Shown piece by piece: positions 4,069 to 23,763 of a stretch of 64,000 nucleotides of DNA (its first letter is position 1; each line of letters opens with the position of its first letter). The stretch comes from Opitutales bacterium (GTDB lineage Bacteria > Verrucomicrobiota > Verrucomicrobiia > Opitutales > Oceanipulchritudinaceae). A program made the position numbers and the translations under genes. Where the stretch lies: assembly GCA_020831525.1 (NCBI GenBank), contig JAFIGH010000002.1:1-64000 (forward strand). The letters are read 5' to 3'. The notes under the pieces were generated by a model. That model made no database searches and was not told the DNA's origin. It worked only from the letters and a program-made list of their open reading frames with translations.

Positions 4069-5145
4069 ATGCCACGCGCCAGTCAACACGAAATCGCCCG
4101 TATCCTCAACCTATCGCAACCCACGGTTTCCCGGTCGCTTGCTAATCATCCTGCCATCAACGCGGAGACGAAGGCGCTTGTCTGGGAGACGGCGGTGCGT
4201 CTCGGCTACCAGCAGAAGGTCAACCAACTGCGCAAAACCGGGCGCGGCGCGAAACCCCTCGTTGTGGGTATCGTTATTTCCATTCCGCACGAGCACCAGA
4301 GTAAGTCGGAGACGTTTCAGCTCGTGCTCAAGGGCATCTCCGAGAAGAGCGCCTCGGAAAACCTCTTGCTCGATGTTTTGCACCACGAACCCAAGGATGT
4401 GAAGAGCAAGTCGCTGCTGCGCCGGATCAAGCAAGCGGGCTGGCACGGCTGCATCCTCGTCCACCCGATGTCGCCGGAGGTCGTGCAGACCATTGCCCGC
4501 ACGGTGGCCACGGTGTCGATCATCGAGAACTACAGGAACGGCCACATCGACTGCGTGGATGTCGACCAGTCGGAGGGGATCTGCGGAATGGTCCGGCAGT
4601 TGATTGAAGCGGGGCACAAACGAATCGGATTCTACAGCTGGGTGTATCAGCTGGAGACTCCATGGGTGCAGCACCGTCTCGGCAGTTTCGTCGAAGGACT
4701 CTACCGTTGCGGCCTCGAGTTCAATGCGGGCGATTGCATTAACATCCATCTTTCGGAGACCCTCGAACCGAATGAAGCCGCCGCGCGCGCGGCGGAGCGG
4801 ATACGCAACGGAGTGACCGCCTTTTGCTGCGCCGCAGACCACCAGGCCTACAGCCTCATGACCGACTTGGCAGGGCAGGGCATCCGTGTTCCGAAGGATT
4901 GCTCAGTCACCGGTTTCGACGGGATCGATGTGCCGCAGGACCTTCCCGCGGTGGCGACCGTGCGGGTGCCCTACGACGAACTGGGGCGGTCTTCCGTCAA
5001 CCAGCTGTTGCGCCGCCTCGAACAGCCTACGGCACCCCGGCGCCACCTTCTGGTCGACGGTGAGTTGATCGTCGGCGGGTCGGTTGCGCCTCCGCCGTCC
5101 CCGCGCGCGGCGGCGAAGAAGAAGGCGCGGTCGAGACAAGCTTGA
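4069..5145 (+). CDS. LacI-family transcriptional regulator
   Basis: 358 aa. The N-terminal helix-turn-helix is clear (ASQHEIARILNLSQPTVSRS, residues 4-23, then SLANHPAIN and the hinge helix region). Residues about 63-335 form the periplasmic-binding-protein-like effector domain (begins LVVGIVISIPHEH; CSVTGFDGIDVPQDLPAVAT near residue 290). The C-terminal tail is Lys/Arg/Ala-rich. Such proteins bind palindromic operators and release or change on binding a sugar. It is the first gene of a polysaccharide-use locus, and a repeated palindrome of the sort LacI proteins bind lies upstream of its own gene and of the downstream units, so it is the best candidate for the locus regulator. Confidence 0.92.
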   Translation: MPRASQHEIARILNLSQPTVSRSLANHPAINAETKALVWETAVRLGYQQKVNQLRKTGRGAKPLVVGIVISIPHEHQSKSETFQLVLKGISEKSASENLLLDVLHHEPKDVKSKSLLRRIKQAGWHGCILVHPMSPEVVQTIARTVATVSIIENYRNGHIDCVDVDQSEGICGMVRQLIEAGHKRIGFYSWVYQLETPWVQHRLGSFVEGLYRCGLEFNAGDCINIHLSETLEPNEAAARAAERIRNGVTAFCCAADHQAYSLMTDLAGQGIRVPKDCSVTGFDGIDVPQDLPAVATVRVPYDELGRSSVNQLLRRLEQPTAPRRHLLVDGELIVGGSVAPPPSPRAAAKKKARSRQA

Positions 5146-6028: not shown

Positions 6029-8965
6029 TTAGAAGGAGAGCCCGAAATTCATGCGCCAGGACATGCCCGGTGCTCGGATGAGGCCGTATTGCGAGCGGTC
6101 GTTGAAGAGATTATCGACATTGAGCTGTATGTAGGCGTCGTGTTCACGGATGTTCCACGAGTATTTGACCATGGCATTGATGGTGAGGCGTGGATCGGTG
6201 AAGGCCTTGATTGTTTCGCCGGTTTCGTTTTGCTTGCGCTGGCCGGCGGAGGTGAAGGCGGAGGCGTATTCACGCTTGCTCTCCCATGTGCCGCCGAGGC
6301 CGAGTTGCAGACCGTCGAGGAACTCCTCGAAGGTGTAGGAGGCCCATGCGCTGACGACGTGTTTCGGCGTGTCGTCGAGGGCCTCGCCCTTGCCCCAGCC
6401 GATGCCGGACCAGCTTGCGGTGTCGGAGTTGGGCAGACCCGGCGTGTCGCCGCCCGGATAGGCGACCTCTGGGTCGACACCCGCGAGCCCCCAGTTGGAG
6501 TTGGGAAAGTACCAGGATGCCCAGCGGTCCCAGTTGCCCTCTGCATAGTCATAGGTGACAAAGTTGCCCGGATTGACGACTTCGCGCTTCACGTGCGAAT
6601 AGTTCAAAACGATCTGCAGGTTGTCCCGGGGAGAGAGAATCATCTGCACCTCGATGCCCTCCGATTTGTCGGAAATGGCTTGGAAGAAATCACCCTCGGC
6701 CCAGTCCTGCGCGGCGGTGTTGACGACCGGGTCGTCGCGGCCTTCGTAGAGGAAGCCCGGCCACGGGTCGTTGTCGGTGCGTTCTTCGCGCGGAAGGGCG
6801 AATTCGTCCTTGAGGGCGGCGAAGACGGCGTCGAGGTAGGCGGCGCCCTCGGGCGTGGAGGCGTTGATGTAGGTGAACTCGGAGCGCCCGTCTTCGCTCA
6901 TCTGCTCGAAAATCGCGCCGGAGGCCCGTGCCGCGGCCCACTCATCAGCGGCGGCTTCGAGGTAGCGGTTGCCCGCCTGCCGCTCGAGATTCACTTCGTC
7001 GAGGCGGTAAACGATGTCAGCATTGCGGTCGAAGTTGCCTTTGATCGGCGCCGGTGCCCACCAGTAGCTGAAGGGCACACCTTCGCGTTCGATGCGGAAG
7101 GCGCTCACCGTGGCGGAGAGGCGGCTGTCGAAGAAGTCGAACTTCAGGCCGACTTCCCGTGCCTTCGCGACGGAGGATTCAAGGGCTTGGCCAATGCCGT
7201 CGCGCTGGCCGTCAAAATTGGGCTCCACGCCCTCGGACTGAAGGGCGAAGATATTGATGCCCTTGGTGATTTCAAAGCTGGCGCCGAACTGGGTCGTCGT
7301 CTTGCTCACCGTTGTGTCGGGGAAGAACTGGCGGCCCGCGCGCGAGCCGATGAGTTCAAAGAATCCGTCTTTCGAAGAAGTCTCGTCGCGGCGGATACCG
7401 CCGATGAGGAAGAGGCGCTCGTTTATGAAGCGGCCTGAGTAAACGAGGTATAGACCGGTGTTCTCGGTTTTGTCGCCGGACAGTTGGGTCGCCCGGAAAG
7501 GCAGGTTGGGCGAGCCGTCGTACTGCGTGTCGAAGCGGATCGGTTCCGGGTCGGTCGGATTGCGGTAGCGGAAGTTGTCGTTGTCCGGGCTGCCCGCTGT
7601 TCCGAAGCCGACATTGTCGTTTTGTTGCAGCTCATACGAGAACCCGACAAGGAGGTTGTGCTCCGAATTGAGCCAGCGGCTTCCTTCGAAGTAGCGGTCG
7701 CGGAGATTCACTTCCGCGCGGACCTGATCCCACTCCGTGTGTTCTTCGGAGCCCACCCAGTTGTATTGAAGGACGGCGTTGTCCACGTCGACGACAACGT
7801 CGGTGTCCCGCCCGTCGATGATCTGCCGGGCGCGGATGGTGGCGAGGTGCGGCTGCGCGCGCGGCGCGGCGGAGTTGGTCGCGATGCCGCCGAAGACATC
7901 GCGCCAGCGGAAGCGCCGGTCGGAATGGTTGTAACCGACCATGAGGTTGATTTTTTCGCCGATGCCCTGCTGCCAGTCGAGGTTGAAGTTCCACGCGTCG
8001 GTGATGAGGAAGGTGTCCGGACCGGACCAACGGAAGGTGCGCGGGTTCTTCCCCTCGAATTCAAGCATCCCGAAAGTCTCCAGCCGGTCGGCTTGGAAAA
8101 TGGGAATACCCGTGATCGTGGGTGAGCGCACGCTGAGGAATCCGATGCCGTTGTCGTGCGCCTTTCCTGCTTCGAAATCGAGCGTGATCTTCGTCCGCCG
8201 GAACGGTGACCACTCCAGGACGGGAGAGATGAACCAGCGGTCGTGCGTGTTGAAATCGGTGAAGTGTTCGCGGTCTTCGTAGGCCGCCGTGAGGCGGTAG
8301 CCGAGATTGCCCGGGAGCGGACCCGTGACATCCAGCGTAGCCCGCCGCCATTCGTCCGATCCGTAGCCGAGCGTGATGTGCTGCTCGCTGTGGGGCAGCG
8401 GTGCCTTCGGGAGATAATTGACGACGCCGCCGAAATTACCCACCCCGTAAAGCAGGGCACTCGGGCCGCGCACGACTTCCACACGCTCAATGTTGATGGT
8501 GTCGGTGGCGTGCTGGCGGCGGAATCCCTTACGAAGTGTGTTGTTGGTGACGAATCCGCGGATCTTGAAAGAGGAATCCGTCTTGTTGGCCGTGCTGCCT
8601 TCGGGGTTGTTCACATTGCCGAAGCCGCCTGTGCCGCCCCCGCTGAAGGCGTCGTTCTGCGACTGCAGGACGATCCCCGCGCTGTAGCGCAGGCTTTCGC
8701 GCAGGTCCGAGGAACCGGTGTCGCGGATAAATTCGGAGGTCAGCACCTCGATTGTCAGCGGCATGTCCTGGATGAGCACGCTCAGGCGCGATCCGGTGAC
8801 GGCGTTGGCCGCGTAGTAGCCGCGGTCGCCGTCGGTCACGACTTCAAAGGGCGAAAGCTCGTAGACGGCGTCATCATCCTGGGCCGTGAGCGGTGCCGCA
8901 AAAGCGGTCAGGAGTCCGAGAAAACACGCGGCGGCCGCGCGGCGGGGTAGAGTCAAGGATTTCAT
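6029..8965 (-). CDS. TonB-dependent outer-membrane receptor
   Basis: 978 aa, typical of the family. Signal peptide to about residue 28; then YELSPFEVVTDGDRGYYAAN, the TonB-box-like segment common in Opitutae receptors. The plug domain spans roughly residues 55-200 (VVRGPSALLYGVGNFGGVVN is the classic plug motif near residue 170). The rest is a beta-barrel ending in aromatic residues (MSWRMNFGLSF). Such receptors import oligosaccharides, siderophores or cobalamin across the outer membrane using TonB energy. No SusD partner is present, as usual outside Bacteroidota. An operator-like palindrome about 90 bp upstream puts it under the same control as the glucanases, so a beta-glucan oligosaccharide is the likely substrate (inference). 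No Shine-Dalgarno sequence is evident before the ATG. Confidence 0.93.
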   Translation of the reverse strand: MKSLTLPRRAAAACFLGLLTAFAAPLTAQDDDAVYELSPFEVVTDGDRGYYAANAVTGSRLSVLIQDMPLTIEVLTSEFIRDTGSSDLRESLRYSAGIVLQSQNDAFSGGGTGGFGNVNNPEGSTANKTDSSFKIRGFVTNNTLRKGFRRQHATDTINIERVEVVRGPSALLYGVGNFGGVVNYLPKAPLPHSEQHITLGYGSDEWRRATLDVTGPLPGNLGYRLTAAYEDREHFTDFNTHDRWFISPVLEWSPFRRTKITLDFEAGKAHDNGIGFLSVRSPTITGIPIFQADRLETFGMLEFEGKNPRTFRWSGPDTFLITDAWNFNLDWQQGIGEKINLMVGYNHSDRRFRWRDVFGGIATNSAAPRAQPHLATIRARQIIDGRDTDVVVDVDNAVLQYNWVGSEEHTEWDQVRAEVNLRDRYFEGSRWLNSEHNLLVGFSYELQQNDNVGFGTAGSPDNDNFRYRNPTDPEPIRFDTQYDGSPNLPFRATQLSGDKTENTGLYLVYSGRFINERLFLIGGIRRDETSSKDGFFELIGSRAGRQFFPDTTVSKTTTQFGASFEITKGINIFALQSEGVEPNFDGQRDGIGQALESSVAKAREVGLKFDFFDSRLSATVSAFRIEREGVPFSYWWAPAPIKGNFDRNADIVYRLDEVNLERQAGNRYLEAAADEWAAARASGAIFEQMSEDGRSEFTYINASTPEGAAYLDAVFAALKDEFALPREERTDNDPWPGFLYEGRDDPVVNTAAQDWAEGDFFQAISDKSEGIEVQMILSPRDNLQIVLNYSHVKREVVNPGNFVTYDYAEGNWDRWASWYFPNSNWGLAGVDPEVAYPGGDTPGLPNSDTASWSGIGWGKGEALDDTPKHVVSAWASYTFEEFLDGLQLGLGGTWESKREYASAFTSAGQRKQNETGETIKAFTDPRLTINAMVKYSWNIREHDAYIQLNVDNLFNDRSQYGLIRAPGMSWRMNFGLSF

Positions 8966-9146: not shown

Positions 9147-9989
9147 TTACCGCATGAGAAAAGCCCACGCGCCGGAGAATTCCTCCCCCGGATCGGGCAT
9201 GTAGACCCAGCGGGCGAGGTCGAAGACATATACCCAAGGGGCGTGGGCGACGTGCAGAACGCCGAGAAAGTCTCCCGTGTCGACATTGCCGTTGGCGTCG
9301 ACGAGCATGCCCGCGTAGAACACGTCCGGCTCACCATTGGCTTCACCTTCGATAAACGCCTCGATGTTACGGAAGGTAATCGTCCCGGAGTCCATGTCGC
9401 TGCCGTCGAACTCCGTCGTGATTTCGAAGCCGACCTGCAGGACCTGGAAGCTGTCGTCGACCGAGAGATCGGGGAAGGTGACGCTCAGCTCAAAGGGTTC
9501 GTTGACCGGACCGATGTTGTGGAACTGCGTGTGGTCGGGCTTGGTTTGGAACTCCCAGCCAAGCTCGTTGAAGCCGAGCATCTTGACGAAGGCGCGCACG
9601 ATCATGTTGGACGTGTCGGCACCCGTCCGCGTGGCGCTGGCTTCGCCGCGGAAGACGATGACGTCGCCCGCCTCGAAAAGTTCGTTCGCCGTGGGGCTTC
9701 CCACCGGACCGGCACCGAACTCCTGGAAGAGAAACGACTCGATCTTGTCGCTCGTTTCATCGTCCCATGACATGAAGGTGACGGCATCGCCGTCGATGGA
9801 GACCCGGTCGGGCACATCGAGGGTGGCAAAACCGACCCATTCGGTGACGGGCTGGAACTGGTTGGCCCCGGCGATCCAGTCTCCGTCTACGGAAAAGTCG
9901 TTCGGGTCGACAAGGAGCGGGGTGTTGGCTTGCGCAAAGGCGGCGCAGAGGACACCTGCGAGGGTAAGCATGTGGATTCGTTTTTTCAT
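9147..9989 (-). CDS. Secreted protein with W/Y-rich C-terminal module, 280 aa
   Basis: Signal peptide (MKKRIHMLTLAGVLCAAFAQA). Residues about 25-215 are beta-rich and resemble a jelly-roll carbohydrate-binding domain, but no family is certain. The last 50 residues form a Trp/Tyr-rich module, VDTGDFLGVLHV then PWVYVFDLARWVYMPDPGEE, closely matching the tail of the GH16 enzyme encoded just upstream (DTGDWLGLLFV, PWVYSPSLGWLYLPESGEE). The gene begins 33 bp after that GH16 gene on the same strand and is followed by a terminator, so the two form an operon. A role in glucan binding at the surface is inferred from context. Confidence 0.8.
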   Translation of the reverse strand: MKKRIHMLTLAGVLCAAFAQANTPLLVDPNDFSVDGDWIAGANQFQPVTEWVGFATLDVPDRVSIDGDAVTFMSWDDETSDKIESFLFQEFGAGPVGSPTANELFEAGDVIVFRGEASATRTGADTSNMIVRAFVKMLGFNELGWEFQTKPDHTQFHNIGPVNEPFELSVTFPDLSVDDSFQVLQVGFEITTEFDGSDMDSGTITFRNIEAFIEGEANGEPDVFYAGMLVDANGNVDTGDFLGVLHVAHAPWVYVFDLARWVYMPDPGEEFSGAWAFLMR

Positions 9990-10022: not shown

Positions 10023-11180
10023 TCATTCATTGGCGGCGTGCCGGGGAGCCCATAGCCAGTCGCCGACGGATTCTTCACCGCTCTCCGGCAGGTAGAGCCA
10101 TCCGAGGGAGGGCGAGTAGACCCACGGGTCTTCCTCGACAAAGAGGAGGCCGAGCCAGTCGCCCGTGTCGGCATAACCAGAGGGGCCGAGGGGCCAACCG
10201 CGCCACTCCGCAGCCGCTTCGGCCGGTGCGTAGACGCGAATGTATTCCACCTCCATGCGCTGCGGCCACTCGCCGTCGTGGTCGATGCCCGAAAGACCGT
10301 AGGGCGAGACGCCCGGGTATAAGTCGGTATTGAAATGTCCTCCCCAGGTGCCGCCCACGGCGATGTTGAGGAGCAGGTGAAACGGTTGGTCAAAGGGCCA
10401 GATTTCGAAAACCTCTTCCGGCGGCGGCGGATTGCGTGAGGGAATGAGAGACTCCTTTGTCACGGAAAAGTAGACCTCTCCGTCGACATCCATTTCGATG
10501 CCTTCTTCGGTCCACACCATCGTATATGTGTGGAACTCGTCGCTGGCGGAGGTCAGAAGCGTGCTCCCGCCGGTCGGGGCGGCAGTGGTGGGCATGCCGT
10601 TGCGCAGCTTCGTGTGCAGCGTGCCGTGAATGTTTTCGGGGATGCCCCCGTAAACCTCGTGGAAGACGGGATCGGTCTCGTAGCCGACATGTTCCATAAT
10701 GTCGATCTCGCCGTTGTCCGGCCAGAAGGCCCCCGGAAAGACGGCGTTTTCCGATAGCATCCAGATCGCCGGCCACGTGCCCGTCGTGTTCGGAATGCGC
10801 GCCCGCACCTCGAAGCGACCGTATTGCCACGCATGCAATCCGCGCGTGACAAGCCGGGCCGAGGTATAAATTGGCGAGCGGGAACTATCGGTGTCCTGCT
10901 GGACTTCAATGATGAGGCGGCCGTCCTCCACCCGCACATTCTCCGGGTCGCTTGTGTAGGTCTGCACTTCGTTATTGCCCCAGCCCCCCGCGCCAAGGTC
11001 GTAGGTCCAGTTCTCCGGATTCGGTGCTCCGTCCACGTCAAATTCGTCCGACCACACCAATTCCCAGCCTGCGGGGACGGAAGCTGCCGCAGCATGCGCC
11101 GCGGCGGCGCTCAGGATCACGACGGAAACGGAAAGGAGTGACGCGAGGTTTCGGGTAGAGTCATGGGGTATCCAAGACAT
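10023..11180 (-). CDS. GH16 beta-glucanase (laminarinase type) with W/Y-rich tail
   Basis: About 385 aa from the ATG at 11180. An alternative ATG at 11189 falls inside the operator. Signal peptide ends near AAAHAAAAS. The catalytic domain starts with WELVWSDEFDVDG; the GH16 active site is NGEIDIMEHVG (nucleophile and acid/base Glu flank Asp), preceded by GTWPAIWMLSE. This is the laminarinase subgroup pattern of beta-1,3(4)-glucanases, which cleave glucan internally. After the lectin-like fold (ends MEVEYIRVYAP) comes a 50-residue W/Y-rich module shared with the next gene. The putative -10 region and operator (11185-11198) sit directly against the start codon, so the mRNA may have almost no leader. 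Confidence 0.9.
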   Translation of the reverse strand: MSWIPHDSTRNLASLLSVSVVILSAAAAHAAAASVPAGWELVWSDEFDVDGAPNPENWTYDLGAGGWGNNEVQTYTSDPENVRVEDGRLIIEVQQDTDSSRSPIYTSARLVTRGLHAWQYGRFEVRARIPNTTGTWPAIWMLSENAVFPGAFWPDNGEIDIMEHVGYETDPVFHEVYGGIPENIHGTLHTKLRNGMPTTAAPTGGSTLLTSASDEFHTYTMVWTEEGIEMDVDGEVYFSVTKESLIPSRNPPPPEEVFEIWPFDQPFHLLLNIAVGGTWGGHFNTDLYPGVSPYGLSGIDHDGEWPQRMEVEYIRVYAPAEAAAEWRGWPLGPSGYADTGDWLGLLFVEEDPWVYSPSLGWLYLPESGEESVGDWLWAPRHAANE

Positions 11181-11184
11181 AGGC

Positions 11185-11198
11185 TGCATAATTATGTA
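11185..11198 (-). promoter_or_regulatory. Putative LacI operator, GH16 operon
   Basis: TGCATAATTATGTA, one mismatch from a perfect palindrome. On the minus strand TTGACC (about 11206-11211) lies upstream with AT-rich DNA between, so the site would cover the -10 region, a repressor-like position. Confidence 0.7.
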
Positions 11199-11417
11199 TT
11201 TTTTTGAGGGGTCAAGGGAAAATGGAGGATTTTCCAAAAATTATTGATGGGCTATAACGGGCTTGAAGCGAACAAACGCTTGAATATACGACAGACGCTG
11301 CCGTAGTGGATGCACCGGCAGCGCAATAGCCCGCGCTCCGGCATTCGCGCGAATAATCGCGCATGTCGGCGCTTCGGGTCCTGCACCTCCGTCGCCGGTC
11401 GCATTGTCGTGGCGCGG

Positions 11418-14393
11418 CTACAGCGACCTGAGGTAGGCGACAAGGGCGTCGCGCTCTTGCGTGGTCATTGTACGGAACTCCTCGCGTGCCCCTTCGGCTT
11501 CGCCGCCGTGCCAGAGAATGGCCTCTTCCAGTGTGCGGGCGCGTCCGTCGTGAAGGTAGGCTTCCTCGCCGCCGACGGCTGCCGTGTGGCCGATGTTCCA
11601 AAGGGGAGCGGTGCGCCACTCCGATCCACCCGCCGTGCCCTCGCCGAGGTTGTCCGCGAGGTCCGGCCCCATGTCGTGGAGGAGCAGATCGGTGTAGGGG
11701 CGGATGGTCTGGTTGCGGAGTTCGGCGGAGGGGTGGTACGGCCCCGTCGTCAGCTCCGGCACGTGGCACTGCACGCAGCCTGCCCGCACGAACATTTCGT
11801 GGCCGAGGATCGTCACCGGGCTGTTGAGATCGCGCCGCGCCTGCACACCGAGCACGGCGATGTAGAGGGTGAGGTCGTCGAGGTCTTTGTCGTTGAGTTC
11901 GGGTCCGTCGTATCCGGGATAGACCGTGGTCGTCACGCCCATGTCGTTGTAGAAGGCGGAGGCAACCTGCTGGCGCAGGTTGGCGGAGCCGCCCTTGTGG
12001 CCGAAGCGCCCGAGGCGCGGATCGCCTGTCTCGGGGTCGGTCACGATGCGCGGGCGGCCGGAGATGCCGTCGTTGCTGTCATCGTCCGGATCGGCAAGGG
12101 CAAGGATGGTTTCCTCGGCGACGGCTTCGAGGAGGCCGAGTCCGACGAGGGGACGCGCCATACGCACGGAGTAAAATTCCGGGGCTTCGCCTTCAAAGGT
12201 GTATTCCGGCTTGCGGAGTTCGTAGGGCGTTCCGTCGCCGTATTGGCCGTCGATGTAGGTGTAGCCGGAAATGCGCACGGTTGCCTCGGGCGTTCCCGTG
12301 GTCGATTGCGTCTGCACGGTCTCACCGAGGACCGGGTGCGGCGTGCCGGCGGCGTCCGCCCCGGCGCGGATGACGGCAAAGTGCATCGGTTCACCCACCG
12401 GTGACGGGAAGGAGCGGCCGTTATTGACATGGCATTCCACGCAACTGCGCGCGTTGAAGGCGGGCCCGAGTTTGCCGATGTGCTCGGTGAATGCGGGGTT
12501 GCCCGGTTCCGAGTGTGAGCCGTCACCGAAATCGGTGTGGTGCAGGCGGCGGCCGAGGAGAAAGGCCTCCGCGCTCTGGGGGGCGGCGTTTCCGGCAAAC
12601 TGCTTGAAGAGGTGCTCCGGTTCGTGCGTATAGCGGTAGGGAAGTGTTGTTTCGCCCCCGAGCCAACCTTCTTCGGGAATGGGATAGGAATCCAGTCGCT
12701 CCCCTTGATTATTGTAGGGGAGACCGGCGGTTTGGGCCGTTTGCCATGGCACGATGCCCCGGCCGACAATGTAGAGTAGAGTGGTGCCGTAGTAGTTGGT
12801 GCGTCCGTTTGCCGGTCCGTCGAGGAAGAGGCTGATTTCCATTTCAATGCGGTCACCCATCTGGAGCGCACGGTTGAACTGGTGGTTGCGGTCGATCGTC
12901 ACCGAGTAGGTGTTGGTGGCCGGGTCGATGAGGGTTCCCAAGGTGTTGAAGTGGTATTCGGCAACCGTCCCCAGTCCGCGGAAAAACACTCTGAATTCCG
13001 GGGCACTGAGCGGAATGACGGTGGTGTAATTGTAGGTGATCGTCGTTCCGCCCTTGGCGACGCGGTCGATGATTTCCACGCCCAGCGTGCGCTCTTCCCA
13101 GTAAAAGGGCAGGAAGTGGTCGTAGGCATCAAAGTTGTTCACCGGGACCGTCCCGGTCCCTTCGCGGGCATGGCGGTCGCGCGCCCTGTCCCCGATGTAG
13201 GTGATCAGGGCTTCGTCCGTTTCTATCTGGTAATCCGGCTCCAGCGGCGTTGACGCGCTGAAGAGCGGAACAATGTCGAAAGGTCCAATGGGATCGCCGG
13301 GTTCCCCGGGGTCTGTCGGTTCTCCGGGGAAACCGATGCGCATGAAGACTGCGTTCGATGTCATCGGCACAACGACGGAGCGCGTGGCGCCCGTGCCTGT
13401 GACGACCGGTCCGAACGGGCTCCACGAGGCGGGATCGCCCGGATTGTGCGACACCATGGGTTGGTAGGGCACTCCGGTGCGCGAGAGCCAGCTGATCTCG
13501 AGGACGCGTTGCCGTTCCGGTTCGAGAACGAACGTCTCACCCGGCGTGGGCTCGTCGGTCGAAGCCAGCGAAACATCGTCGATGAATACCTCGCCCTCGC
13601 CGCCGGCGACCGCGCCGGTGACGAACCGGAACCGTATGAGCGCGTCGGTCGCGCCGACCGGGGCCGCCAACCCGTCCACGCGGATCTCCTGCCACGAGCC
13701 TGTCGTCGCCGTGAAATTCACCAAACCGGTGCCGTCCGCGACACCGCCGTCGGCGTTCAGCCACTGCACTTCATACTGCTGGATGTAGCTTGGGCCCACG
13801 CTGACCTGCTTTGCATGAAATGAAAAATCGTAGGTTTTACCGCCTGTGACAGCCGAGCCCGCCTCGGACAAACGCTGTGAGAGCAGTCCCTCGTTGGCGG
13901 AAGCCGTCGTATTGATGATGCGCGCGCGCATGCTGTAGCTTCCCGTGCGGGCGTCCGCATCGCTGCGGACCGGCGGCTGCGATGCGACCGCCGTCCAGTC
14001 CTCCGCCTGCGGACCGGAGCCTTCTTCAAAGCCGCCGTTCACGACAATGGACGGACCCGCGGCGGAGCCGGGCACCGTTTCCAGAATCCGGTAGTGGCGC
14101 GGCCCAGGCGCGTCAAAGTCGTTGACAGAAAGCATGCCGCCGCTGCCGGAGCGGACCGCGCCAAGGTTGTTCCATGGGCCTGATGCCGTCGCCGCCCATT
14201 GCGCTTGGTAGGTGCGCCCGGTCTGCGAGGGCCAGCTGAGGCTTTGTCCCGGCCGCGCCTCCGGTGTGTCCGGCATGCTGTGAGCCACAAAGGGCAGAAA
14301 GCCGGCGAAGATCAGGAGCGAAACGGCATGCGGCATGCGGCGGATCAGCCGAAGAGTGAAGCTGCGGGGACTGGAGGGGCTAATGGAGTGCAT
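11418..14393 (-). CDS. Di-haem oxidoreductase (DHOR/DUF1111) with carbohydrate-binding-like domain
   Basis: 991 aa from 14393; this start keeps a basic n-region (RLIRR) before the hydrophobic core (VSLLIFAGFLPFVAHS). Residues about 45-105 and 285-355 are two related beta modules (LSWPSQTGRTYQAQW and ISWLSRTGVPYQP). Residues about 110-275 (VVNGGFEEGSGPQAEDW to EVFIDDVSLAS) look like a CBM4/9-type jelly-roll. From about residue 385 is a di-haem oxidoreductase with two haem sites, CVECH (about 650) and CVQCH (about 873), and GHEMFVRAGCVQCH typical of the family. Members are related to MauG and cytochrome c peroxidases. An operator-like palindrome overlaps the start codon, so the redox enzyme is co-regulated with glucan-degrading genes. 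Substrate unknown. Confidence 0.85.
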   Translation of the reverse strand: MHSISPSSPRSFTLRLIRRMPHAVSLLIFAGFLPFVAHSMPDTPEARPGQSLSWPSQTGRTYQAQWAATASGPWNNLGAVRSGSGGMLSVNDFDAPGPRHYRILETVPGSAAGPSIVVNGGFEEGSGPQAEDWTAVASQPPVRSDADARTGSYSMRARIINTTASANEGLLSQRLSEAGSAVTGGKTYDFSFHAKQVSVGPSYIQQYEVQWLNADGGVADGTGLVNFTATTGSWQEIRVDGLAAPVGATDALIRFRFVTGAVAGGEGEVFIDDVSLASTDEPTPGETFVLEPERQRVLEISWLSRTGVPYQPMVSHNPGDPASWSPFGPVVTGTGATRSVVVPMTSNAVFMRIGFPGEPTDPGEPGDPIGPFDIVPLFSASTPLEPDYQIETDEALITYIGDRARDRHAREGTGTVPVNNFDAYDHFLPFYWEERTLGVEIIDRVAKGGTTITYNYTTVIPLSAPEFRVFFRGLGTVAEYHFNTLGTLIDPATNTYSVTIDRNHQFNRALQMGDRIEMEISLFLDGPANGRTNYYGTTLLYIVGRGIVPWQTAQTAGLPYNNQGERLDSYPIPEEGWLGGETTLPYRYTHEPEHLFKQFAGNAAPQSAEAFLLGRRLHHTDFGDGSHSEPGNPAFTEHIGKLGPAFNARSCVECHVNNGRSFPSPVGEPMHFAVIRAGADAAGTPHPVLGETVQTQSTTGTPEATVRISGYTYIDGQYGDGTPYELRKPEYTFEGEAPEFYSVRMARPLVGLGLLEAVAEETILALADPDDDSNDGISGRPRIVTDPETGDPRLGRFGHKGGSANLRQQVASAFYNDMGVTTTVYPGYDGPELNDKDLDDLTLYIAVLGVQARRDLNSPVTILGHEMFVRAGCVQCHVPELTTGPYHPSAELRNQTIRPYTDLLLHDMGPDLADNLGEGTAGGSEWRTAPLWNIGHTAAVGGEEAYLHDGRARTLEEAILWHGGEAEGAREEFRTMTTQERDALVAYLRSL

Positions 14394-14402
14394 AAGTGTG
14401 TA
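14389..14402 (-). promoter_or_regulatory. Putative LacI operator, di-haem oxidoreductase gene
   Basis: TGCATAAGTGTGTA, 11 of 14 to the consensus; overlaps the ATG at 14393, with TATACA just upstream as a possible -10. Confidence 0.5.
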
Positions 14403-14541: not shown

Positions 14542-15174
14542 TCAGGAGCGCTTCGCGCGGCGCCGTGCGGCGACGAGCCCGAGCGCGAGGAGGCCGAGCA
14601 AAGCGGCGTAGACCGAGGGCTCGGGGATGGCGGTAACGGTAATGTTGTCAATGGTGACGCCTCCGCCTGATCCGTCAAAAGCGCCGGTCACCAAGTTGAA
14701 TTCGAGGAACAGAGTATCCGCATTGGCGGGAACGCCGGATACGTCGAGTTGAATTGTCGTGAAATCAGCTGTGAGTTGGTTTTCAAGATTGAAGAAGTTT
14801 ACCGCATTGCTCGCACCGCCCGGGCCCATCGTGTTCGTGAGTAGGTGAAATACACCACCGACCAAGGGTTGCGAGATGCGCGCATCGAACTCAATCACAA
14901 GCGAATCCATACCCATAAAGTCCGTTCCAGGCAATGGATTCTGAAAGGCAAAATTGAGTCCCGGACCATCGGAGAAGCCCGCGATTTCCATAGCTCCTCC
15001 CGGATTGCCGCCCGTTTCGAGCCAAGTCTTGTTGTCGTTGGTTGCACTAGCGACGGGATTCCATGCGTCGATGGACAAAGCATCTTCGAAGGTTTCGTTG
15101 AAGATTACGGATGCGGATAAGGAGAGGGCGCAGGACAGCGTTCCCGTGGTGATAATGGATAGGAGTTTCATCAT
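14542..15174 (-). CDS. PEP-CTERM protein, 210 aa
   Basis: Signal peptide MMKLLSIITTGTLSCALSLS; a beta-sandwich middle (VIFNETFEDALSIDAWNPV near residue 23; GGGVTIDNITVTAI near 175), and a PEP-CTERM tail IPEPSVYAALLGLLALGLVA then ARRRAKRS. The fold pattern (start with a fold-opening FNETFED, end with IDNITV) is that of carbohydrate-binding or lectin-like jelly-rolls exported with exosortase tails. It lies next to a decayed copy of itself, and each has its own terminator hairpin and operator-like palindrome. The presumed operator is at 15243-15256, in the leader region. Confidence 0.85.
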   Translation of the reverse strand: MMKLLSIITTGTLSCALSLSASVIFNETFEDALSIDAWNPVASATNDNKTWLETGGNPGGAMEIAGFSDGPGLNFAFQNPLPGTDFMGMDSLVIEFDARISQPLVGGVFHLLTNTMGPGGASNAVNFFNLENQLTADFTTIQLDVSGVPANADTLFLEFNLVTGAFDGSGGGVTIDNITVTAIPEPSVYAALLGLLALGLVAARRRAKRS

Positions 15175-15873: not shown

Positions 15874-15943
15874 AGTATTTTTTGGTTATGCATTGATTTC
15901 GGATGCGCGTCAGGATACCGATTTGCATCCATGATGCCTTTCA

Positions 15944-16208: not shown

Positions 16209-17120
16209 ATGATTACGATTCCTGTGAACAAACGCTTCACCGCCGCCCGCCGCAGGGCGGTGGCCGTCCTTTTCCCCGCGGTTCTCGCCGCGTCCGTAGC
16301 GGCGGGCACCGATTGGCGCCTCGTCTGGTCCGATGAGTTCGAGACGGACGGTTTGCCCGACCCCGCGAAGTGGGGCTATGACCTCGGCACCGGCGCCTCC
16401 GTCGGCCTCGTTGGGTGGGGAAACAATGAAGCCCAGTACTACACCGACCGCACCGAGAACGCGCGGGTCGAGAACGGCATCCTCATCATCGAGGCGAGGC
16501 GCGAGCAAATGCAGAACTCGCAGTACACCTCCGCGCGTATGGTCACGCGCAACCGCGGCGATTGGCTCTACGGGCGAATCGAGGTGCGGGCGAAAATGCC
16601 CTATGGGCGGGGCACATGGCCGGCGATCTGGATGCTGCCGACGGACTGGGAGTACGGCGGATGGCCGCACAGCGGTGAAATCGACATCATGGAGCACGTG
16701 GGCTTTGACCACGGGCGTGTCCACGGCACGGTCCATACCGATGCATTCAATCACATGCAAGGCACGGAGCGCGGCGGGTCCACCATGGTCCCGGACCTGC
16801 ATGAGGCGTTTTACACCTACGCCATTGAGTGGGACGAGGACCGCATCCGGTGGTTCGTCGATGATGTGGAGTATTTCGAATTTGAGCGCCAGGACGGGTG
16901 GGGCAGTTCGGAGTGGCCCTTTGACCGGCGGTTCCACCTTATTCTCAATATCGCCATCGGCGGGAACTGGGGTGGTCAGCAGGGGATCGACAACGACATT
17001 TTTCCGCAGCGCATGGAAGTTGAGTATGTGCGCGTTTTTGAGGCCGCCGACGCGGCTGAACCGGAACCCGTGCGCGGTGCGTGGATCCATTTCTTCAATC
17101 CCGGCTACGAGGGAAACTGA
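16209..17120 (+). CDS. GH16 beta-glucanase (laminarinase type)
   Basis: About 303 aa from the ATG at 16209 (an upstream ATG at 16182 is possible). Signal peptide through VLAASVAAG. Catalytic domain from WRLVWSDEFETDGLPD to MEVEYVRVFEAA, with GTWPAIWMLP and the active site SGEIDIMEHVGF (two Glu around Asp). The enzyme should hydrolyse beta-1,3 or mixed-linkage glucan internally. Unlike its paralogue at 10-11 kb, it stops soon after the catalytic domain (RGAWIHFFNPGYEGN) and has lost, or never had, the W/Y-rich tail. It leads an operon with the lipoprotein glycosidase (9 bp gap) and probably the phosphorylase. Confidence 0.92.
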   Translation: MITIPVNKRFTAARRRAVAVLFPAVLAASVAAGTDWRLVWSDEFETDGLPDPAKWGYDLGTGASVGLVGWGNNEAQYYTDRTENARVENGILIIEARREQMQNSQYTSARMVTRNRGDWLYGRIEVRAKMPYGRGTWPAIWMLPTDWEYGGWPHSGEIDIMEHVGFDHGRVHGTVHTDAFNHMQGTERGGSTMVPDLHEAFYTYAIEWDEDRIRWFVDDVEYFEFERQDGWGSSEWPFDRRFHLILNIAIGGNWGGQQGIDNDIFPQRMEVEYVRVFEAADAAEPEPVRGAWIHFFNPGYEGN

Positions 17121-17129
17121 GGGCGGAGA

Positions 17130-18494
17130 ATGAACGGTCTGCTTTGTGATCTGTGGGTTCGGTCCGGTAGGGAGTGTTTTCCTGCCGTCCTGGTGGCGTT
17201 TTATGCCGCCGCGCTCGCTCCGCTTCTTCTTTTGGCGGCGTGCGCCCCGGCGAGGGAGAGCGAACCGTTCTCTGTCCATGTTGAGCGCGCCCCGGGCGGT
17301 CAGTTCACTCTTTTGCGCAACGGCGAGCCCTTCATTATGAAGGGGGCGGGCGGCCGCAGCCGGATCGAGGAACTGGTGGCGGCAGGGGGAAACACCGTTC
17401 GCACGTGGGGAGTTGACGATCTCGAGCGGGAGATCGCGGGAATGCCCTTTCTTGATTACATGCACGCTCAAGGGCTTGCCGTGCTTGCGGGAATCTGGGT
17501 GCAGCACGAGCGTCACGGATTCGACTACAGCGACCCCGATGACCTCGAGCGGCAGCGGCGGACGGTGCGCGAAGCTGTGGAAACCTACCGCGACCATCCT
17601 GCCATAGTCGTTTGGGGACTCGGCAACGAGATGGAAGCTTTTCGCGGCGATGCCGACGACACGCCCGTCTGGCAGGAGGTGAACATCCTCGCGCGCATCG
17701 TGAAGGAAGTGGATCCAAGCCGACCCGTCATGACCACGGTCGCAGGGGTGACGCCGGAGAAGGTCGCCAGTGTGCTCCGTCATGCGCCGGAGGTCGATAT
17801 TCTCGGAGTGAACGCCTACGCGGCGGCCATCCGGACGGGCGAAATTCTTAACGAAGCGGGATGGGACCGACCCTTTGTTCTTGCCGAATTCGGTCCGCGG
17901 GGGCACTGGGAGGTGCCGCTCACGCCGTGGGGCTCGCCCGTCGAGCCGACCTCAGAGGAAAAGGCTCGGTATTACCTGAACACCTACGAGACAGTCATGG
18001 AAGACGCGGGCGACCGTTGTCTCGGTACTTTTGCTTTCCTCTGGGGCCACAAGCAGGAGGTGACACACACATGGTATGGTATGTTTCTTTCCGGCGGCGA
18101 GAAGCTGCCCGCGGTCGATGTCATGACGTATGCATGGAGCGGGCGCTACCCGGAAGTTCGCTGCCCCGTGCTTCGCACTGTTGACTTCGACGGAAACGGC
18201 CGCGTTGTCCCTCCCGGCACGCGTTGGGACGTATCGGCGGAAGCTGTCGACCCCCAGGGGCTTCCTCTCGAGTTTGCATGGGAGGTGGTCTCCGAGCAGT
18301 CGGATCCCGCCGTGGGCGGCGACCGCGAGGAACCACCCCCGCGCCACCCCGACGCCATCCTCGCCGCCGACGAAAATTCCGCCGCCGTGCGTGCTCCGGA
18401 TACTCCCGGCGCATACCGGCTTTTCATTACCGTGAGAAACACCGAAAACTCCGCCACGGTGGCGAATTTTCCCTTCAAGGTTGAAGCACCTTGA
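17130..18494 (+). CDS. Lipoprotein glycoside hydrolase, clan GH-A TIM barrel
   Basis: 454 aa. A GGAG sequence precedes the ATG. Lipoprotein signal with lipobox LAAC (Cys near residue 38). The barrel starts GQFTLLRNGEPFIMKGAGGR; acid/base Glu in VVWGLGNEME (about residue 168) and nucleophile Glu in PFVLAEFGPRG (about residue 253) are the Asn-Glu and Glu pair of GH-A enzymes (GH2, GH5 and GH158 are alike at this level; the exact family cannot be told by eye). Residues about 345-454 form a PKD/Ig-like domain. Membrane-anchored and co-transcribed with GH16, it probably trims glucan oligosaccharides in the periplasm or at the surface. Confidence 0.8.
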   Translation: MNGLLCDLWVRSGRECFPAVLVAFYAAALAPLLLLAACAPARESEPFSVHVERAPGGQFTLLRNGEPFIMKGAGGRSRIEELVAAGGNTVRTWGVDDLEREIAGMPFLDYMHAQGLAVLAGIWVQHERHGFDYSDPDDLERQRRTVREAVETYRDHPAIVVWGLGNEMEAFRGDADDTPVWQEVNILARIVKEVDPSRPVMTTVAGVTPEKVASVLRHAPEVDILGVNAYAAAIRTGEILNEAGWDRPFVLAEFGPRGHWEVPLTPWGSPVEPTSEEKARYYLNTYETVMEDAGDRCLGTFAFLWGHKQEVTHTWYGMFLSGGEKLPAVDVMTYAWSGRYPEVRCPVLRTVDFDGNGRVVPPGTRWDVSAEAVDPQGLPLEFAWEVVSEQSDPAVGGDREEPPPRHPDAILAADENSAAVRAPDTPGAYRLFITVRNTENSATVANFPFKVEAP

Positions 18495-18533: not shown

Positions 18534-21500
18534 ATGAAACATTCGGTATTGGATTCGCCCGCTGTGGCGGCGAATGGAATCGACGCCTCCGCGGCTGTTC
18601 CGGCAAACATGATTCTCGATCTTGAAGACGACAGCTATGTTGTCATCGAAGCATACGACCGCATCCCGCCGTTCTTTTGCTCACTCACGAGTGACGCCGA
18701 CATTTGGGTATTCATTTCCTCGACCGGTTCGCTCACGGCCGGGCGCAAGGATCCCGACAGTTCGATTCTGCCTTACGAGACGGTCGACCGGATCCACGAC
18801 AGCGGTGCGCACACCGGCCCCGTGGCGATTTTGCGCTGGCGCGAGAATGGCGGGTGGCGTGTCTGGGAACCGTTTTGCGGCGAGGGAAAGGCCGACGGAA
18901 ACGTAAGGCGCCGCCTCATGAAGAATGTTGCGGGTACGCGAATGGTATTCGAGGAGACTCTGGTTGATGAAGGGTTGTCGTTTTCCTCAACGCTCATGAT
19001 CAGCGGACGTTTCGGGCTCGTGCGTGAATGCCGGGTGCGCAACTCCGGGGATAAGGGGCGGTGCCTTGAAGTCCTGCACGGGATGCGCAATCTCGTGGCC
19101 AGCGGGATCACGCGGCAGTTGCAGAACGAAATGAGCTGCCTCACTGATGCCTACAAGCAGAATGAAATCCTCGAGCCTGAGGGGCTCGGTGTTTTCAGCA
19201 TGGCGTCAGGAGTTACGGACCACCCCGTGCCCTACGAAGTCCTGCGCGCCACTGTGGCGTGGTCGTGCGGACTGCCTGGGGGCAGCCGGAGCGTCGATCC
19301 CTCCGCTCCGGACCAGTTCCGCGCCGGAAAGAGTCCGGCGGTGTCGGCGGCATCCCGCGGCGTGCGTGCCCACTGGTTCGAGTGGGCGGAGATCAGCGTG
19401 CCCGCCGCCGAGGACGTTCGCTGGAAACAGATTGCCGATACCGGGCTCAGTCAGGGTGCGGTGGCGCGAATCCAGCGCCTCATGAAAACGGGTCTGCCCG
19501 TGCGGGATGTCGAAGAGGATGTTCTCCAGGGCGAGGATTCGCTGCGCCGTCGGCTCGCGGCGGCGGACGGGTACCAGGAAACGGCGGACAATCTGGCTAC
19601 GGCGCACCACCTCGCCAATGTTCTTTTCAATGTCATGCGCGGCGGAACTTTTCCCGGCGGCTACGAGATGGCGCGCGACGACTTCCGCGCCTTTCTCGTC
19701 TCGTCCAACCGGGCGCTCGCCGCCAAGCACGAAGACTGGCTGAAGGGCCTCCCGGAGCGCGTCCACCGCGACACGCTTCTGCAGGGCGTGAAGGAACAGG
19801 GCTGCGTGCAGTTGGAGCGTGTGTTTTTTGAATACCTGCCGCTCTCCTTCAGCCGCCGCCACGGTGACCCCAGCCGCCCGTGGAACCGCTTCCGCATCGA
19901 AACCCGCGATGAAGAGGGGAGGGACATTCTCACGTTCCAAGGCAACTGGCGCGACATCTTTCAGAATTGGGAGGCCCTCGCGCTCAGCTTTCCGGCTTAC
20001 CTTGAGAGCATGATTTCCAAGTTTGTGAACGCATCATCGGTGGACGGATACAACCCGTACCGGATCATGCGTGACGGCATCGACTGGGAAGAACCCGAAC
20101 CGGAAAATCCATGGGCGGCCTTTGGCTACTGGGGCGATCACCAGATTATCTATTTGCTCAAGTTGCTCGAAGCGTATTCCGCACACAACGACGGAGCGCT
20201 TCCGGGTCTATTGAATACAAGACGCTTTACCTACGCGAACGTTCCCTACCGCATCAAACCCTTCGAGGAGATTCTACAGGATTCCCGCAACACGCTCGAA
20301 TGCGATACGGAGCTAGCCGCGCGCTTGCGCAAGGACGCGGCGACGCGCGGATCGGACGAGAAGCTCGTTACCGGCGTGGACGGTATGCCCGCCCTCGTTA
20401 GCTTCATGGAGAAACTCCTCGTTCCGCTCCTCGCAAAGTGGAGCAATTTCCTGCCCGGCGGCGGCATCTGGATGAACACGCAGCGGCCCGAGTGGAACGA
20501 TGGAAACAACGCTCTGGTCGGCAACGGACTCTCCATGGTCACACTGTGCTACCTGCGACGGCACCACTCTTTCCTGCTTGGCCTTCTGGAGCAGTTGCCG
20601 GAGGCGGCATTTGCGGTCTCCGCGCCGGTCGCGGAGTGGATGCGTGCCGTCCATTGCGCACTCGCCGACGGAAACCCTGCGGCAGACTGCGGCGATGCCG
20701 TGCGCCGGTTTGCCATTCTCCGTGCTCTCGGGACTGCCGCCTCCGCGCACCGGGAAGCCGTCTACGGGCGCGATTTCACGGAGGATGCGGCGGAGATCTC
20801 CGCAGGCGAACTGACCGGACTTCTGCAGACCTTTCAAGCGTGGACGGATGAGACGATCCGCCGCAACAAACGCGCCGACGGACTCTACCACGCCTACAAT
20901 CTGATGTTGATCACGGATGAGGGGGCGGATATCGGTAACCTCGACCCGATGCTCGAAGGCCAGGTAGCCGCCCTAAGCGCCGGGCTGCTCAGCGCCGGAG
21001 AGGCCATCGAGCTTCTCGACAGTCTCCGCGTTAGCCCGCTCTATTGCCCGCGCCGACGGAGCTATATTCTGTATCCGGACCGTGCCATTATCCCGTTCCT
21101 CCGGAAGAACCGTCTTGATGCGCAGGCGCTTCGTGCCAGCCCTTTGCTGGCCGCGATGATGAAACGCGGGGACCACCGAATCGTGTACCCGGAGAGCGAT
21201 ACGGTGTGGCGCTTTCATCCCGACTTCACCAACGAAGGCGACTTACGTGCGCGGCTCGACGTGGTCGAGCGCGAGGGTGCCTACGGAAAGGTCGGGCCGG
21301 AAGACCGCCGGTGTATCCACGATCTCTACGAAGGTGTTTTCAACCACCACTCATTTACGGGAAGGAGCGGTTCGATGTTCGCCTACGAAGGCCTCGGAAG
21401 TATCTACTGGCACATGGTATCAAAGCTCCTTCTCGCGACCCAGGAGGTTCTTGTTGACGCTTGTAAGCAAGGGGCGCCGATCTCCGTTTACGAAGGCCTC

Positions 21501-22019
21501 GACAGGCACTACGAAGCCATCCGTGATGGTCTCGGCTTCCGCAAGTCTGCCGAGGATTACGGTGCCTTTCCGACCGATCCATATTCACACACGCCTGCCC
21601 ACGCGGGTGCGCAGCAGCCGGGAATGACCGGACAAGTAAAGGAAGAGATCCTCACCCGGCGCGGCGAACTGGGTGTGCGCGTCGAACGGGGCTCTATCCA
21701 TTTCGCGCCGGTCCACCGTCTTCTCGGCGAGGAGTTTCTTCCGGGAGACGGAGGGGTGTTTAGATTCATTGATGCCACGGGCCTTCGCGCAAGCCTACCC
21801 CTGCGGGCCGACAGCCTTGCCTTTACCCTGTGCCAGACGCCGGTTGTCTATCGCCGCACCGATGCCGCGACCGGTCCTTCCATCCGCGTCCACTCCGCCG
21901 ACGGACGGGAGGAGCGGATCGAGGGCGATAAACTCGGAACGTCGTGGAGCCAGTCGGTCTTCCGGCGCGACGGGAGCGTCCGCTTAATCGAAGTCGAACT
22001 CCCCGCAGGGCATTTATGA
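18534..22019 (+). CDS. Probable beta-1,3-oligoglucan phosphorylase (GH149/GH161-like)
   Basis: 1161 aa, no signal peptide, so cytoplasmic. The N-terminal region (from MILDLEDDSYVVIEAYDRIP) is a beta-sandwich as in GH94-related phosphorylases; the C-terminal half carries the (alpha/alpha)6-barrel with WAAFGYWGDHQIIYLLKLLE (the Asp is a good catalytic acid candidate, near residue 536) and WMNTQRPEWNDGNNALVGNG (near 650). The length and these motifs fit the GH149/GH161 enzymes that release glucose-1-phosphate from beta-1,3-glucan oligomers; this is from memory of the families, not an alignment. Following GH16 and a glycosidase and preceding a sugar symporter, it fits the last step of laminarin use. 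Confidence 0.7.
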   Translation: MKHSVLDSPAVAANGIDASAAVPANMILDLEDDSYVVIEAYDRIPPFFCSLTSDADIWVFISSTGSLTAGRKDPDSSILPYETVDRIHDSGAHTGPVAILRWRENGGWRVWEPFCGEGKADGNVRRRLMKNVAGTRMVFEETLVDEGLSFSSTLMISGRFGLVRECRVRNSGDKGRCLEVLHGMRNLVASGITRQLQNEMSCLTDAYKQNEILEPEGLGVFSMASGVTDHPVPYEVLRATVAWSCGLPGGSRSVDPSAPDQFRAGKSPAVSAASRGVRAHWFEWAEISVPAAEDVRWKQIADTGLSQGAVARIQRLMKTGLPVRDVEEDVLQGEDSLRRRLAAADGYQETADNLATAHHLANVLFNVMRGGTFPGGYEMARDDFRAFLVSSNRALAAKHEDWLKGLPERVHRDTLLQGVKEQGCVQLERVFFEYLPLSFSRRHGDPSRPWNRFRIETRDEEGRDILTFQGNWRDIFQNWEALALSFPAYLESMISKFVNASSVDGYNPYRIMRDGIDWEEPEPENPWAAFGYWGDHQIIYLLKLLEAYSAHNDGALPGLLNTRRFTYANVPYRIKPFEEILQDSRNTLECDTELAARLRKDAATRGSDEKLVTGVDGMPALVSFMEKLLVPLLAKWSNFLPGGGIWMNTQRPEWNDGNNALVGNGLSMVTLCYLRRHHSFLLGLLEQLPEAAFAVSAPVAEWMRAVHCALADGNPAADCGDAVRRFAILRALGTAASAHREAVYGRDFTEDAAEISAGELTGLLQTFQAWTDETIRRNKRADGLYHAYNLMLITDEGADIGNLDPMLEGQVAALSAGLLSAGEAIELLDSLRVSPLYCPRRRSYILYPDRAIIPFLRKNRLDAQALRASPLLAAMMKRGDHRIVYPESDTVWRFHPDFTNEGDLRARLDVVEREGAYGKVGPEDRRCIHDLYEGVFNHHSFTGRSGSMFAYEGLGSIYWHMVSKLLLATQEVLVDACKQGAPISVYEGLDRHYEAIRDGLGFRKSAEDYGAFPTDPYSHTPAHAGAQQPGMTGQVKEEILTRRGELGVRVERGSIHFAPVHRLLGEEFLPGDGGVFRFIDATGLRASLPLRADSLAFTLCQTPVVYRRTDAATGPSIRVHSADGREERIEGDKLGTSWSQSVFRRDGSVRLIEVELPAGHL

Positions 22020-22314: not shown

Positions 22315-23763
22315 ATGAGTCTGCCCCGACACTGCGCCACCGCCGCCGCCGACCGGATACCAAATCTCCAGAAAATCGCCTACGGGCTTGGAGCCTTGGT
22401 GAACAATCTGTTAGGGGCGGCCATCGGCGTTATGGCCATCGTGCTCAACCTCGGCCTCGGCATGAATCCGGCGGTCGTCGGTCTGCTCATGGCCTTGCCC
22501 CGTCTCACCGACGCGCTGACCGACCCGGTGATGGGATATATCTCGGACCAAACCCGCACGCGCTGGGGACGCCGCCGACCGTTTATTTTCTTCGGTGCCA
22601 TCGCTGCCGGGATCATCTTCGCCCTGCTTTGGCAACTGCCGCCGGGGCATAGCGAGACCTTCTATTTCTGGTTCTTCCTTATCGGTTCCTTGTTCTTTTA
22701 CCTCGCTTACACGGTCTTCGCGACGCCGTGGGTAGCGCTCGGTTATGAGATGACACCCGATTACAACGAGCGCACGCGCCTCATGGGTGTGGCCAACTGG
22801 ATGGGGCAGATCGCATGGGTAGCCGCGCCGTGGTTCTACTGGATCATGGAGAATAAAAATTTCTTCGATGATTCCGTCTCAGGAGCACGGGGCCTGGCCA
22901 TCATGATCGGGGTCTTCGCCGTGGCGGTCGGCATCATCCCCGCTGTTTTCTGCCGCGAGCGCATGGGCAAGGCGGAAATGGCGGAAAAAACGGAATTGAT
23001 CGAGAGCGGCCTACAAGCCATCTGGCGCAATGTGGTTTCGTTTTTCAAGGGCTTTCTCATCACGATCAAATTTACGCCCTTTCTTAAACTGTGCGGCGCC
23101 ACGTTTCTCGTTTTCAACGGCTTCATGCTCGTTTCGGCGTTCTCTTCGTACGTGATTATTTACTACGTCCACGGAGGCGACAAAGGCGCCGGGTCACAGC
23201 TGATCGGCTGGAACGGAACGGCCTCCGCCATCGCCACCTTCTGCGTCATTCCCCTTGTCACATGGATCTCGACGCGCCTCGGCAAGCGGCGCGCCTTTTT
23301 CATCGCCATCGGCATTTCCATTTTCGGCTACGGGCTGAAGTTCTTCTGCTACAGCCAGACCACGCCGCTCCTCCTCCTCGCCGCCACGCCCTTCATTGCT
23401 TTTGGTCTCGGCGGGCTCTTTACGCTCATGGGGTCGATGATCGCGGATGTCTGCGACTTTGACGAACTCGAAACCGGACGCCGCCGCGAGGGCATGTTCG
23501 GCTCCATCTTCTGGTGGGTCGTCAAACTTGGCATGGCCCTCGCTCTTGGATTTTCGGGCTTTCTTCTCAACGCCACGGGTTTCGACGTCGAAATGGGAGG
23601 CGACCAGCCGGAGCGCACGCTCCTGCTCATGCGCATCTTCGACTGCATCATACCGATGGTCGCCTCCGGTATCGCCATCTGGCTCGTCGCCTCCTACCGC
23701 ATCACCGAGGACAAGGCGCGCGAGATCCGCACAAAACTCGAAGCCCGCCGCGGCAAGGTGTGA
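22315..23763 (+). CDS. GPH-family sugar:cation symporter (MFS)
   Basis: 482 aa with about twelve hydrophobic segments. The MelB/GPH signature DALTDPVMGYISDQTRTRWG then RRRPFIFFGA lies at residues about 63-92 after the second helix; WVALGYEMTPDYNERTRL (about 139) is the second conserved loop. GPH carriers import glycosides, pentosides or hexuronides with H+ or Na+. Located directly behind the phosphorylase, it would bring glucan di- or oligosaccharides across the inner membrane (inference). Confidence 0.9.
   Translation: MSLPRHCATAAADRIPNLQKIAYGLGALVNNLLGAAIGVMAIVLNLGLGMNPAVVGLLMALPRLTDALTDPVMGYISDQTRTRWGRRRPFIFFGAIAAGIIFALLWQLPPGHSETFYFWFFLIGSLFFYLAYTVFATPWVALGYEMTPDYNERTRLMGVANWMGQIAWVAAPWFYWIMENKNFFDDSVSGARGLAIMIGVFAVAVGIIPAVFCRERMGKAEMAEKTELIESGLQAIWRNVVSFFKGFLITIKFTPFLKLCGATFLVFNGFMLVSAFSSYVIIYYVHGGDKGAGSQLIGWNGTASAIATFCVIPLVTWISTRLGKRRAFFIAIGISIFGYGLKFFCYSQTTPLLLLAATPFIAFGLGGLFTLMGSMIADVCDFDELETGRRREGMFGSIFWWVVKLGMALALGFSGFLLNATGFDVEMGGDQPERTLLLMRIFDCIIPMVASGIAIWLVASYRITEDKAREIRTKLEARRGKV

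Follow-up and report, generated by a model that had tools for sequence, protein, structure and literature searches.

The window, that is, the whole 64,000-nucleotide stretch analyzed here, contains a set of genes grouped around a predicted di-heme redox protein. These comprise a LacI-family regulator (4069..5145, plus strand), a TonB-dependent receptor resembling siderophore receptors (6029..8965, minus; operator-like site at 9056), a secreted protein of unnamed family that belongs to the same regulon (9147..9989, minus), a GH16 glucanase (10023..11237, minus; GH16 E 4e-18; operator-like site 11185-11198), immediately upstream of this the gene for the di-heme protein (11418..14393, minus), upstream of that in turn a PEP-CTERM protein (14542..15174, minus; operator-like site at 15243), a second GH16 (16333..17133, plus; E 3.7e-26), a GH149 beta-1,3-oligoglucan phosphorylase (18534..22019, plus), an MFS_2 sugar transporter assigned by profile match (22315..23763, plus) and a GH17-like glucanase (23864..25072, minus; operator-like site at 25147). 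The 1161-residue GH149 protein, which is without any Pfam match, was identified through its full-length match to the solved beta-1,3-oligosaccharide phosphorylase of GH149 type (PDB 6hq6, E 1.3e-260). Because genes for GH149, two GH16 proteins, GH17 and an MFS_2 sugar transporter occur together, we assign this region, judged by gene content, as a beta-1,3-glucan utilization locus. The GH16 glucanase at 10023..11237 and the secreted protein at 9147..9989, both on the minus strand, resemble each other at their C-termini, where they have in common a motif of about 50 amino acids (DTGDxLGxL..PWVYxxxLxWxYxP) that is possibly a sorting or anchoring tail.

The gene for the di-heme protein is an ATG-initiated open reading frame encoding 991 amino acids, with the very coordinates and strand given in the original prediction. 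An N-terminal signal region, Sec-type by inspection of the sequence (aa 1-40, 14274..14393), is followed by a first beta module of about 70 amino acids (about aa 40-112, 14058..14276), a CBM4/16/22-like jelly-roll (aa 116-285, 13539..14048), a second beta module of about 70 amino acids (about aa 286-360, 13314..13538), a middle domain (aa 393-551, 12741..13217) and the DHOR (PF06537) di-heme domain (aa 576-991, 11421..12668). The DHOR/DUF1111 assignment made earlier is borne out by a Pfam score of 224.7 bits (E 2.4e-66, cut-off 22) and by two CxxCH heme sites, CVECH (aa 651-655, 12429..12443) and CVQCH (aa 873-877, 11763..11777). The CBM4/9-like jelly-roll also stands: the Pfam CBM_4_9 profile reaches 25.2 bits over aa 116-239, just under its curated cut-off of 25.9, and in Foldseek searches the structure model of aa 37-392 (pLDDT 81.5) matches CBM16, CBM4, CBM22 and CBM61 jelly-rolls (E ~1e-6, TM by target ~0.6-0.7). 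CBM16, CBM22 and CBM61 bind other polymers, and the fold match is therefore no proof of glucan specificity. The two small modules described before as Ig-like are real, with strands in the model and homology to one another, and match no Pfam Ig model; the module-CBM-module order is kept in about 20 Verrucomicrobiota proteins. The earlier description was thus right for the parts that it named, and missed the middle domain, the GH149 gene (18534-22019) and the GH17 gene (23864-25072).

The middle domain, of about 160 amino acids, is matched by no Pfam or NCBIfam model. Scanning 84,980 species genomes located it at 123 loci in Verrucomicrobiota, Planctomycetes, Myxococcota and Gammaproteobacteria, and at the 80 loci kept for analysis every complete copy lies directly N-terminal to a DHOR domain that has two CxxCH sites. 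What precedes the middle domain differs widely in length, from no residues at all to over 1,000 amino acids. Within it R403, R405, R407, H408, E411 and Y431 are invariant across 78 sequences, giving the signature RxRDRHxxE. Modeled together, the middle domain, a beta-sandwich, and the DHOR domain form one confident unit (pLDDT 93), which has among its top Foldseek matches the beta-1,3-glucan-binding module CBM56 (5t7a, probability 1.00, TM by target 0.63, with a weak E of 6e-3), a match that presumably falls on the middle domain of the model. CBM56 is the nearest named fold and itself occurs N-terminal to the module in several family members, but the invariant Arg, His and Glu residues of the middle domain are untypical of a binding module and no sequence relation was found: aligned by hhalign against CBM56 copies from related loci, the middle domain gave a probability of 0.5%, and we rejected it as a CBM56 by sequence.

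In a DHOR tree 77 proteins with the middle domain group together in a single clade (support 0.955), separate from the imelysin-linked DHORs. Set against 11 ordinary DHORs, they show invariant residues of their own: R615, R616, H619, H627 and E629 close to heme site 1, and E891 and R893 beyond heme site 2. Directly ahead of heme site 1 lies a subfamily-specific cluster, HHxDFxxGxHxE, which in the window protein reads HHTDFGDGSHSE (aa 618-629, 12507..12542, minus strand); its H619 and H627 are present in 77 of 78 middle-domain proteins and in none of the 11 ordinary DHORs. As far as sequence comparison can define it, the middle domain therefore marks a DHOR subfamily, for which we propose the name mid-DHOR, and the window protein belongs to it, with an RxRDRHxxE domain directly before its DHOR domain and with the HHxDFxxGxHxE cluster. 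One protein with a divergent middle domain and two CBM56 modules (L118, genome G054) lies outside the core clade and does not have the HHxDFxxGxHxE cluster.

With respect to heme chemistry, the DHOR domain keeps the cytochrome c peroxidase C-terminal motif HDG..TLEEA. In alignments His962 stands at HDG+14, where the cytochrome c peroxidases 3o5c and 1iqc have the Met that is the high-potential heme ligand of these enzymes. Held against bacterial cytochrome c peroxidases, the window protein has the HDG and has the E-heme Met replaced by His962, a replacement that leads us to predict a C-terminal heme with probable bis-His ligation, by His877 and, as distal ligand, His962. After heme site 1 no conserved His is found at what we take to be the place of the BCCP distal His, from which the N-terminal heme of mid-DHORs (His655) may be open, as in RoxA. 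No solved relative of the DHOR domain was found in the PDB by sequence, nor by fold at E<=0.001. The genome carries genes for cytochrome c assembly.

The gene had also been placed under a palindrome of the glucan regulon. An operator-like palindrome, TGCATAAGTGTGTA (14389..14402), does overlap the start codon of the DHOR gene, and its 13.3 bits make it a weak site among those of the regulon, about 0.9 such sites being expected by chance per 64 kb. The palindrome model, trained on related genomes only, finds sites at the GH16, TonB receptor, PEP-CTERM and GH17 genes and gives the DHOR gene its modest score. The placement gains from recurrence: clean palindromes lie over the start codon of the orthologous DHOR gene in two related genomes (G002 and G006) and about 40 bp ahead of the start codon in a third (G008). 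The ortholog in a fourth (G007) is without a palindrome; in that genome a GH3-CBM6 gene starts 9 bp after the DHOR gene. An apparent frame-broken PEP-CTERM gene (15540-15930, minus strand) lies under the strongest regulon palindrome (15944), and a related PEP-CTERM gene sits between this gene and the DHOR gene.

A tie to glucan enzymes recurs in other genomes. Listed by locus, the fusion partners of mid-DHORs are GH16-CBM6-CBM56 (L109), GH16-CBM56 (L112), CBM56 (L064 and L091, the latter with a GH16 detected by phmmer only), CBM6 with CBM56 (L105, L111), GH5 (L046) and GH16 (L173, L210); listed by organism, the N-terminal partners are GH16-CBM6-CBM56 in Exilibacterium, GH16-CBM56 in Rheinheimera, GH16 and CBM56 in Teredinibacter, CBM6 with CBM56 in Reinekea, two CBM56 in Microbulbifer and GH5 in a Verrucomicrobia genome. 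Of 77 mid-DHOR loci outside the family of the window, 13 have GH16/GH17/GH149-like genes or domains within 10 kb or in the same open reading frame. None of 40 control regions of 20 kb, drawn at random from related genomes, has them (Fisher p 0.003; the control is imperfect, all 40 regions being from one order), and neither does any of 8 ordinary-DHOR loci. GH149 homologs were counted in 24 of 289 sampled genomes of the phylum: in 4 of 7 middle-domain genomes and in 20 of 282 others (p 0.001). In one genome (G259) the GH149 and middle-domain genes are about 4 kb apart. Locus content, operators in relatives, GH16/CBM56/CBM6 fusions and GH149 co-occurrence thus give good support to the tie, put forward in the original prediction, between a di-heme redox enzyme and beta-1,3-glucan degradation; the chemistry put forward with it, oxidation of a sugar, an aldehyde end or peroxide or the passing on of electrons, is conjectural. 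That prediction had counted homologues outside glucan loci against itself, and such homologues do exist: 64 of the 77 loci are without a recognized glucan gene within 10 kb. The mid-DHOR genes in Legionella (L058, L066) are likewise without an obvious glucan locus or polysaccharide role. The family is therefore broader than laminarin use, but its window member, which lies in a glucan locus, does belong to it.

Of characterized systems, Xyn65 from Gilvimarinus xylanilyticus, a GH26-CBM31-CBM6-Big-DHOR beta-1,3-xylanase whose authors noted its architecture and proposed an oxidoreductase or binding role (PMC9638140), is likewise secreted, has a DHOR domain fused to carbohydrate-active modules and acts on a beta-1,3-linked polysaccharide. 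Xyn65 has its own GH26 xylanase, whereas the window protein is without a glycoside hydrolase domain and sits in a glucan regulon. The DHOR/DUF1111 proteins paired with imelysin (PMC3143127) share PF06537, two CxxCH sites and the HDGRA..TLEEAI..H motif, but lie beside imelysin and are without the middle domain, a CBM and the HHxDFxxGxHxE cluster. The rubber oxygenase RoxA is likewise secreted and is, with its two hemes, related to cytochrome c peroxidases; its target is a polymer outside the cell, polyisoprene, and it has an open, O2-bound N-terminal heme and a bis-His C-terminal heme (PMC6311187), as we predict for the window protein. In RoxA the distal His, H641, is distant from the MauG motif, unlike the His of DHOR at HDG+14, and a PDB search gave no detectable sequence match between the mid-DHOR family and RoxA. 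Cbp2D and TERTU_2913 (PMC8981238, PMC10916295) are, similarly, secreted, carbohydrate-linked multi-domain c-type cytochromes tied to polysaccharide degradation, but have small mono-heme X183/X132 domains (X183 with His/Met ligation) that likely serve electron transfer, rather than a di-heme enzyme fold.

The reading we tentatively prefer, placing it ahead of a tethered peroxide scavenger, is that the window protein is a secreted, glucan-tethered di-heme c-type oxidoreductase that acts on the glycan or its ends. The jelly-roll would hold the enzyme on laminarin-type glucan, and the middle and DHOR domains would make up one catalytic unit. The C-terminal heme (His877, with probable distal His962) would carry electrons, the N-terminal heme (His655) would stay open for peroxide or oxygen, and R403, R405, R407, H408, E411, H426, R615, R616, H619, H627 and E629 may shape a site to accept a sugar substrate or a metal. 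The enzyme would then oxidize glucan chains, chain ends or released oligosaccharides, so assisting the GH16, GH17 and GH149 enzymes. With relatives joined to or beside beta-1,3-glucan enzymes in other phyla, it may perform a hitherto unrecognized oxidative step. Algae store much carbon as laminarin-type glucan, which bacteria have been described as breaking down by hydrolysis and phosphorolysis; if our reading is right, a conserved di-heme enzyme that accompanies GH16, GH149, CBM56 and CBM6 in several phyla adds a redox step to this breakdown, and the large, functionally dark DHOR family acquires its first testable substrate. The question is in any case narrowed to one module, the middle domain with DHOR, and about a dozen mutable residues. 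A more far-reaching version, to which we give a rather low probability, would make mid-DHORs a new auxiliary-activity class of copper-independent di-heme c-type enzymes that attack beta-1,3-glucans, and perhaps beta-1,3-xylan, oxidatively, with the middle domain as part of the substrate site and with LPMOs replaced by these enzymes across phyla. Our literature searches found no paper tying DHOR to laminarin or to Verrucomicrobia, and no family member has a known activity. In the papers found, fusion of DHOR to CBMs and a glycoside hydrolase is noted once, for Xyn65 (PMC9638140); within the reach of our searches, what is new is the obligate middle domain with its invariant residues, the association with beta-1,3-glucan systems across phyla and the placement in the regulon.

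Much of the pattern follows as well from simple peroxide scavenging. A glucan-tethered peroxidase would clear H2O2 arising, for instance, in algal defence or through sugar oxidases, and so shield the glucan-degrading enzymes while leaving the sugar untouched; tethering beside glucanases makes sense for protection, and both the retained HDG..TLEEA motif and the predicted open N-terminal heme fit such an activity. We nevertheless hold this to be the less probable account, if the strongest of the competing ones. The RxRDRHxxE and HHxDFxxGxHxE motifs are conserved across phyla and absent from ordinary DHORs, which suggests a specific substrate rather than peroxide alone, and no gene for an electron-donor cytochrome was recognized adjoining the DHOR gene, where no dedicated search was made.

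Alternatively, the polysaccharide might be no more than a support, with the protein an extracellular oxidoreductase for a non-sugar substrate such as a lipid, a phenolic or another matrix compound. The analogy is with RoxA and 10S-DOX, di-heme cytochrome c peroxidase relatives that oxygenate polyisoprene or fatty acids (PMC6311187, PMC4496055); the superfamily thus includes oxygenases, and the extension of the family beyond glucan loci, Legionella included, is in line with this analogy. Repeated fusion to GH16, CBM56 and CBM6 and the linkage to GH149 point instead to the glycan itself, and we regard a non-sugar substrate as unlikely.

Slightly less probable again is a redox shuttle to or from another extracellular enzyme, an LPMO or a sugar dehydrogenase, in the manner of the CBM-linked c-type cytochrome Cbp2D of Cellvibrio, the cytochrome domain of which can reduce LPMOs (PMC8981238). 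The predicted bis-His heme would suit electron transfer, but DHOR is a di-heme fold of the enzyme type, one heme of which is predicted to be open, and it has a conserved pocket. The candidate partners were both rejected: no AA10 LPMO is encoded in the genome, and an apparent fusion at L064 to the PQQ dehydrogenase family AA12 is a lone TrAA12 match, to a 60-aa tail, that covers only the last 60 model positions.

A component of iron acquisition, finally, as in the imelysin-paired DUF1111 proteins, is very improbable: ordinary DHORs of the same order do adjoin imelysin, a pairing also reported in the literature (PMC3143127), and the TonB receptor of the locus has its siderophore-type resemblance, but no imelysin (M75) gene was recognized at the window locus, the mid-DHOR core is a clade separate from the imelysin-linked DHORs and the ordinary-DHOR loci have no glucan genes, on which grounds we set the iron-uptake reading aside.

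The N-terminal regions of mid-DHORs are diverse in composition. Among 78 members they include F5/8-type C domains (16), CBM_4_9 (11), CBM56 (8) and CBM6 (3), and in 17 of the 78 (for example L099, L101 and L111) the secreted repeat PF03640 (Lipoprotein_15) stands ahead of the middle domain. The polysaccharide-degrading shipworm symbiont Teredinibacter sp. ISS155 (G346) has 10 mid-DHOR copies, L173-L180 among them, and these paralogs bear differing binding modules: CBM6, F5/8, CBM56 and a ricin-type lectin.
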